Shown one piece after another: positions 2,125-2,616 of a stretch of 64,000 nt of DNA. The position numbers and the translations under genes were made by a program. The notes below the pieces were generated by a model. The model was not told where the DNA came from and searched no databases. It saw nothing but the letters and a program-made list of their open reading frames with translations. The DNA is from Candidatus Poribacteria bacterium. Its GTDB lineage: Bacteria > Poribacteria > WGA-4E > WGA-3G. The stretch is from NCBI GenBank assembly GCA_022821725.1, contig JAJEDB010000078.1:1-64000 (forward strand). The letters run 5' to 3'. The number at the start of each line of letters is the position of its first letter. Within the stretch, counting starts at the first letter, position 1.

Positions 2125-2616
2125 ATGCCACGCAGAAACAAGGTTCTCAACATCGGCGATACTGCCCCATTATTCACACTCCCATCGCATCAACGCGGAG
2201 AGGTGTCGCTTGAAACGTATCAAAAAACACAACACGTCATCCTCACCTTTTTCCGAGGGACGTGGTGACCCAACAGCCGTCGCCAGTTGGCGGCAGTGCA
2301 AGAAAACGTTGAAGGCTACGCCGAGTATGCAGGCACCCCACTCGCCATTGCGGGACAGTGGCCCCGTGAACTCCGAGGCTATGCCGATAAAAACGGCATT
2401 ACGTTCCCACTACTGGTGGACAAAACACGGGACGTTATCAAAAGTTACGGAGTCTATCACTGGCTCAGTTTAGAGGCTTACAACATCGCGCGTCCGGCGA
2501 CATTCATCATTGACAAGACAGGGATGATTAGATATATGTATATCGGCTCACATCAATTCGACCTCCCAAAACAGATAGAAATCCTCGAATCCCTGAAAGA
2601 AATCGCAAAACTATAA
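2125..2616 (+). CDS. Peroxiredoxin-like (AhpC/TSA) putative selenoprotein, in-frame TGA as Sec
   Basis: Read through one TGA (2266-2268, codon 48), the frame encodes 163 residues of the AhpC/TSA thioredoxin fold: G-D-T-A-P-L-F-T-L-P near residue 11, V-I-L-T-F-F-R-G-T-W before the TGA, P-N-S-R-R-Q-L-A after it, and R-P-A-T-F-I-I-D-K-T-G-x-I-R near residue 130. In relatives the residue after G-T-W is the peroxidatic cysteine, so TGA stands exactly where Cys or Sec belongs. The protein has no cysteine at all. A GC-rich hairpin follows the TGA. Selenocysteine is therefore more likely than a chance nonsense mutation, though a pseudogene cannot be excluded. It would reduce peroxides with a thiol donor. 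Without readthrough only a 47-residue stub is made; an internal TTG at 2287 has no ribosome site. Confidence 0.75.
2266..2294 (+). promoter_or_regulatory. UGA codon with bacterial SECIS-like hairpin
   Basis: After TGA 2266-2268 comes a stem of 2279-2284 (GTCGCC) with 2289-2294 (GGCGGC), six pairs including one G-U, closed by the tetraloop AGTT (2285-2288). A G among the first two loop bases, and a loop 16 bases or more from the UGA, match the published bacterial SECIS model bound by SelB. It was folded by eye only. Confidence 0.6.

Follow-up and report, generated by a model that had tools for sequence, protein, structure and literature searches.

Gene, frame and surroundings at 2125-2616

The DNA analysed here, referred to as the window, is a stretch of 64,000 nucleotides on contig C59 of a 4.97 Mb Candidatus Poribacteria genome, for which metagenome assemblies of Candidatus Poribacteria are the closest relatives. 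Positions 2125-2616 of its forward strand were assigned to a gene for a selenocysteine-containing peroxiredoxin-like protein of 163 amino acids, on the basis of a translation with TGA read as selenocysteine (Sec, U), a match to PF00578, conservation in the phylum and pN/pS values. An earlier note on this DNA had described a frame interrupted only by the TGA at 2266-2268 (forward strand), and the translation returned this codon as the sole interruption; it corresponds to residue 48, a predicted Sec, with the retention of the TGA in relatives and the sel genes of the genome as evidence. The read-through protein matched the Pfam family AhpC-TSA (PF00578; 5.7e-27, 94.6 bits), with Redoxin also matched, and the motif surrounding the predicted Sec in the PF00578 fold is FFRG-T-W-U48-P-N-S51-R-R-Q-L. 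The whole translation of the window protein contains no Cys. The absence of any other Cys, claimed by the note, is thus correct for the window protein and for 21 of its 38 relatives and incorrect for the remaining 17, which carry Cys156 near the C-terminus. Automatic annotation would miss this gene or cut it at residue 47.

Alignment of the upstream regions led to the prediction of a -35 box, TTGACA, at 2090-2095 and a -10 box, TAAAGT, at 2113-2118, both on the forward strand. In 33 of 39 loci the same boxes recur with identical spacing to the ATG, a TTGACA-N17-TANAAT-like promoter ending 6 nt ahead of the start codon; about 0.0013 such occurrences would be expected by chance per random site in the window. 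The boxes are shifted by one base in two further loci and were not found in L046 and L049. Since the -10 box is only 6 nt away from the ATG, the gene may well be expressed from a leaderless mRNA. Directly downstream, ribD follows the gene in nearly all loci with downstream sequence at hand. Just upstream, two overlapping small ORFs occupy positions 1319-1805 of the window, and the second of them occurs near the gene in just four other loci. These ORFs may resemble a BrnT/BrnA-type toxin-antitoxin pair.

Position of Sec48 and relation to known families

The earlier note had placed the TGA exactly at the peroxidatic Cys of peroxiredoxins, and this assignment had to be corrected. In phmmer alignments to Bcp and AhpE, Ser51 stands opposite their peroxidatic Cys and Sec48 opposite the residue three positions ahead of it; the same placement was obtained in an alignment with the TxxU, UxxC and Cys peroxiredoxins of the same genome. 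Sec48 thus matches the T/S of TxxC, which is the N-terminal Cys position of CxxC, and aligns with the U of the UPFC and UGDC proteins encoded by the same genome. The peroxidatic motif PxxxT/SxxC is absent, with R44 in place of the Pro and Ser51 at the peroxidatic place, while Pro124 aligns at the cis-Pro position, which holds the catalytic Arg of peroxiredoxins, with Arg123 adjacent to it. In peroxiredoxins, which are of the TxxC type, the second position carries the nucleophile and an Arg occupies the cis-Pro position, whereas in monothiol glutaredoxins and in glutathione peroxidases it is the first position that is kept, the second being Ser or Thr (PMC2757866). Because the UxxS motif and Pro124 at the cis-Pro position match the second of these patterns, the protein is classified from its sequence as a peroxiredoxin-like UxxS protein and not as a canonical TxxU peroxiredoxin.

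The note's observation that Ser replaces the second Cys of C-P-x-C extends to all 39 sequences, in which Ser51 is invariant and encoded exclusively by AGC or AGT. The invariant residues further include those of GQW and HW, whose conservation is suggestive; with regard to the Sec-Gln-Trp-Asn catalytic tetrad of glutathione peroxidase, Q78, W79, W113 and N120 were observed to be invariant. An AlphaFold2 model of moderate quality (pLDDT 75.5) was matched by Foldseek to Bcp, AhpE and ResA, and VIA-align against peroxiredoxins returned Z values of about 16-17; a shared predicted fold does not prove a shared function.

These alignments and fold matches bear on what the enzyme might do. A thiol or selenol oxidoreductase of the UxxS type, devoid of peroxide reduction and acting like the monothiol glutaredoxins, for example in deglutathionylation or in the reduction of small-molecule or protein disulfides, would agree with CxxS being the monothiol glutaredoxin type (PMC2757866), with a Pro retained at the cis-Pro position as in thioredoxin-type enzymes and with the distant ResA matches; the nearest predicted folds, however, are those of peroxidases, and we regard this activity as unlikely, although it is the strongest competitor. 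A canonical 1-Sec peroxiredoxin with Sec48 as the peroxidatic residue appears more improbable still: Bcp and AhpE peroxiredoxins are indeed the best matches in both sequence and fold, but Ser51 holds the peroxidatic place three residues further on, and the protein has neither the PxxxT/SxxC motif nor, with Pro124, the catalytic Arg in its place. The probable reading is that codon 48 is decoded as Sec in a UxxS selenoprotein of the AhpC/TSA type, which would exert selenolate chemistry with resolution by an external thiol.

The selenoproteins of PF00578 on record have the motifs TxxU, UxxC/UxxU and UGC, and the UxxS form has been assigned to pfam13911/cd02970 (PMC13188914, PMC9312934); the note had pointed to Sec-containing peroxiredoxins in other bacteria, and within PF00578 Sec forms are published with UxxC and with TxxU. 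One close likeness is to the Prx-like thiol:disulfide oxidoreductase selenoproteins, listed under PF00578 with UxxC/UxxU (PMC13188914, Table 1), which share the Pfam family and the Sec position with the window protein but have C or U at +3, where all 39 window-type sequences have Ser. The UxxS motif itself is common to the AhpC/TSA-type selenoprotein from an Olavius algarvensis symbiont (pfam13911/cd02970; PMC9312934, PMC13188914). Compared by family profile and description, the two differ, as the window protein scored 12.3 bits against PF13911 (AhpC-TSA_2), for which the cut-off is 27, and gave a clear PF00578 match instead. The Sec peroxiredoxins (TxxU, PF00578; PrxU, NF040737) have the fold family in common with the window protein, whereas its Sec lies three residues N-terminal and PxxxTxxU is lacking; the NF040737 score was 25 bits against a cut-off of 270. 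Glutathione peroxidase (UxxT) likewise has Sec first in CxxC, a hydroxyl residue at +3 and no resolving Cys in the motif, a likeness in motif layout only, and the Pfam search gave no match of the window protein to GSHPx (PF00255) at E values up to 10.

The combination of PF00578 with UxxS is absent from the families listed in a 2026 review (PMC13188914). Under the domain-plus-motif convention of that review it would represent an additional subfamily, set apart from the published UxxS form by profile score and description. In the literature searched, no paper combines Poribacteria with selenoproteins. Relatives outside the phylum, collected by a short-pattern search and mostly from Nitrospinae, are only about 27% identical, and none of them has a Sec aligned with codon 48.

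Conservation, Sec machinery and the downstream hairpin

The phylum scan detected the protein in 66 of 84 genomes, one in-frame TGA being present in 65 of the 66 and none in the last. Since orthologues across the phylum share this same TGA, its conservation is far beyond chance. The homologue comparison at codon 48 proposed in the note returned Sec or Cys; among the 38 Poribacterial relatives fetched, the codon is TGA in 37 and TGT (Cys) in one. Comparison with the window sequence gave pN/pS values of 0.15-0.41 before the TGA and 0.08-0.30 after it, below 0.5 on both sides, and purifying selection is therefore evident in the coding sequence either side of the codon.

The orthologue with TGT, L046, was placed in the tree as sister to the TGA gene L049 with a support of 100/99. 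Because it is nested in this way, a recent change from Sec to Cys would be the simplest reading. The genome harbouring L046 (G025) retains tRNA-Sec and also the double-TGA peroxiredoxin described below (G065). At L046:3142-3183 the Cys orthologue retains the entire six-pair hairpin sequence, possibly as a fossil SECIS.

The sel genes, whose search in the genome the note had suggested, were all found: selA (contig C104), selB (C57), selD and the gene for tRNA-Sec (selC). The tRNA-Sec has the anticodon UCA and adjoins selB on C57; selD (L011, G000:C59:72492-73415, forward strand) lies on the window's contig, past the end of the window. An in-frame TGA within the motif KCAGUASK makes the product of selD a predicted selenoprotein as well. 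tRNA-Sec was detected in 32 of 37 relatives' genomes, with no match in the other five, for which assembly completeness is not given. An enrichment of SelA and SelB in bins of sponge symbionts has been described (PMC5649159).

The hairpin described in the note at 2279-2294 (forward strand) was confirmed; its loop AGTT occupies 2285-2288, and the structure coincides with the predicted fold, of -12.0 kcal/mol. Its stem (2279-2284 and 2289-2294, GTCGCC and GGCGGC) is made up of five Watson-Crick pairs and one G.U pair; the fold, the bSECIS model and synonymous constraint are the evidence for a putative bacterial SECIS element. The published bSECIS constraints are a spacing of 16-37 nt, a loop of 3-9 nt, a G in the first two loop positions and a minimum free energy of -7.5 or lower (PMC13188914), and the window hairpin agrees with all of them. 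Its loop begins 16 nt past the UGA and G is the second loop base, which bears out the placement and the early G pointed out in the note. Of the 39 orthologues only 15 pass the strict model, which counts against the element.

Taken alone, the hairpin is weak to modest evidence, because 92 of 400 synonymous shuffles (23%), all encoding the same peptide, pass the bSECIS model too; its energy was reached by only 5 of 200 such shuffles. Of all six-codon stretches in the 39 sequences, codons 51-56 showed the least synonymous diversity, with an observed/expected ratio of 0.41. Within this stretch, CAG54 is present in all 39 sequences and TTG55 in 38 of them; the loop and its closing pair lie in these two codons. 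Among orthologues the stem is variable, often with a mismatch next to the loop, and its covariation in the orthologue alignment did not exceed that of shuffles. The synonymous minimum, the varying stem and the absence of a covariation signal mean that the predicted SECIS element has its support in sequence constraint more than in a stem that is strictly kept. The Rfam gathering scan of the window gave no match. A clearer element occurs in paralogues of the phylum; one example, GCAGCTC-GGC-GAGCTGC, begins 14 nt downstream of the UGA.

Two explanations that dispense with Sec can be dismissed as next to impossible: a pseudogene or sequencing error would have nothing in its favour except the stop itself and conflicts with the same TGA in independent genomes, the coding constraint downstream and the sel genes, and a genome-wide code change giving UGA another amino acid conflicts with the 9 of 41 long ORFs of the window for which TGA is an ordinary stop, with the full Sec pathway and with Cys as the sole alternative residue. 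The decoding machinery, conservation and selection are three independent lines of evidence and they agree; hence 2125-2616 is, by all sequence tests, a real selenoprotein gene, and its assignment in the note to the AhpC/TSA (peroxiredoxin-like) superfamily stands with the PF00578 match.

Further TGA-containing proteins were observed in the phylum. A predicted exported Bcp-type peroxiredoxin with two tandem domains (G000:C5:30419-31330, reverse strand; loci L070, L071 and L112) has two in-frame TGAs, one for each peroxidatic position (TGGU and GRGU); about 60 of the 84 genomes of the phylum have it, with both TGAs in nearly all full-length copies. Two Prx-like proteins, at G000:C91:1607-1978 (L072) and G000:C143:9255-9623 (L073), have the TGA in UxxC (UPFC and UGDC) and strong downstream hairpins of the form GCAACTC-GGN-GAGTTGC. 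Among the nearest paralogues of PF00578 from deeper Poribacteria lineages (L126-L155), the majority carry a TGA, mostly in FYRGxWUPxC-like motifs, and one cluster on contig C12 of G076 contains three of them. In the FYRGxWUPxC paralogues the TGA is at the same place as codon 48, with strong hairpins downstream. Judged from these sequences, Sec peroxiredoxin-like proteins seem to be numerous in the phylum.

Proposed mechanism and significance

In the mechanism that we propose, SelB and tRNA-Sec would decode the UGA at 2266-2268 as Sec, aided by the hairpin immediately downstream. In the predicted thioredoxin-like AhpC/TSA fold, Sec48 would be located at the N-terminus of the active-site helix, and its selenolate would reduce a hydroperoxide, or an oxidised thiol, with formation of a selenenic acid. 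As Ser51 cannot resolve this intermediate and no resolving Cys is nearby, an external thiol would do so by way of a selenenyl-sulfide, the route taken by glutathione peroxidase (UxxT) and the monothiol glutaredoxins (CxxS); Cys156 might be an alternative resolver in the orthologues that have one. By analogy with these enzymes, the protein is most likely a monoselenol oxidoreductase of hydroperoxides or thiols that depends on an external thiol for its resolution.

In the deep tree of paralogues the UPNS clade is on a long branch, and support for where it stands with respect to the UxxC groups is weak. The motif, and the AGC/AGT codons of Ser51, one step from TGC/TGT, suggest that UPNS may descend from UxxC; these codons could also be held by the hairpin region. 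We tentatively propose, as a broader picture that may well need revision, a Poribacteria-specific UxxS subfamily of PF00578 derived from UxxC by loss of the resolving Cys, an independent single-selenium peroxidase resembling glutathione peroxidase, expressed from a leaderless mRNA in a phylum with an unusual abundance of Sec peroxiredoxin-like proteins.

The protein represents a new variation within an established kind of enzyme, not a kind of its own. As a monoselenol variant of a UxxC enzyme, it would be useful for asking how Sec is resolved in the absence of a partner Cys, and the natural replacement of TGA by TGT for asking why Sec is retained elsewhere. For the biology of the organism, the finding would mean that an uncultured phylum of sponge symbionts relies on selenium for its redox enzymes.
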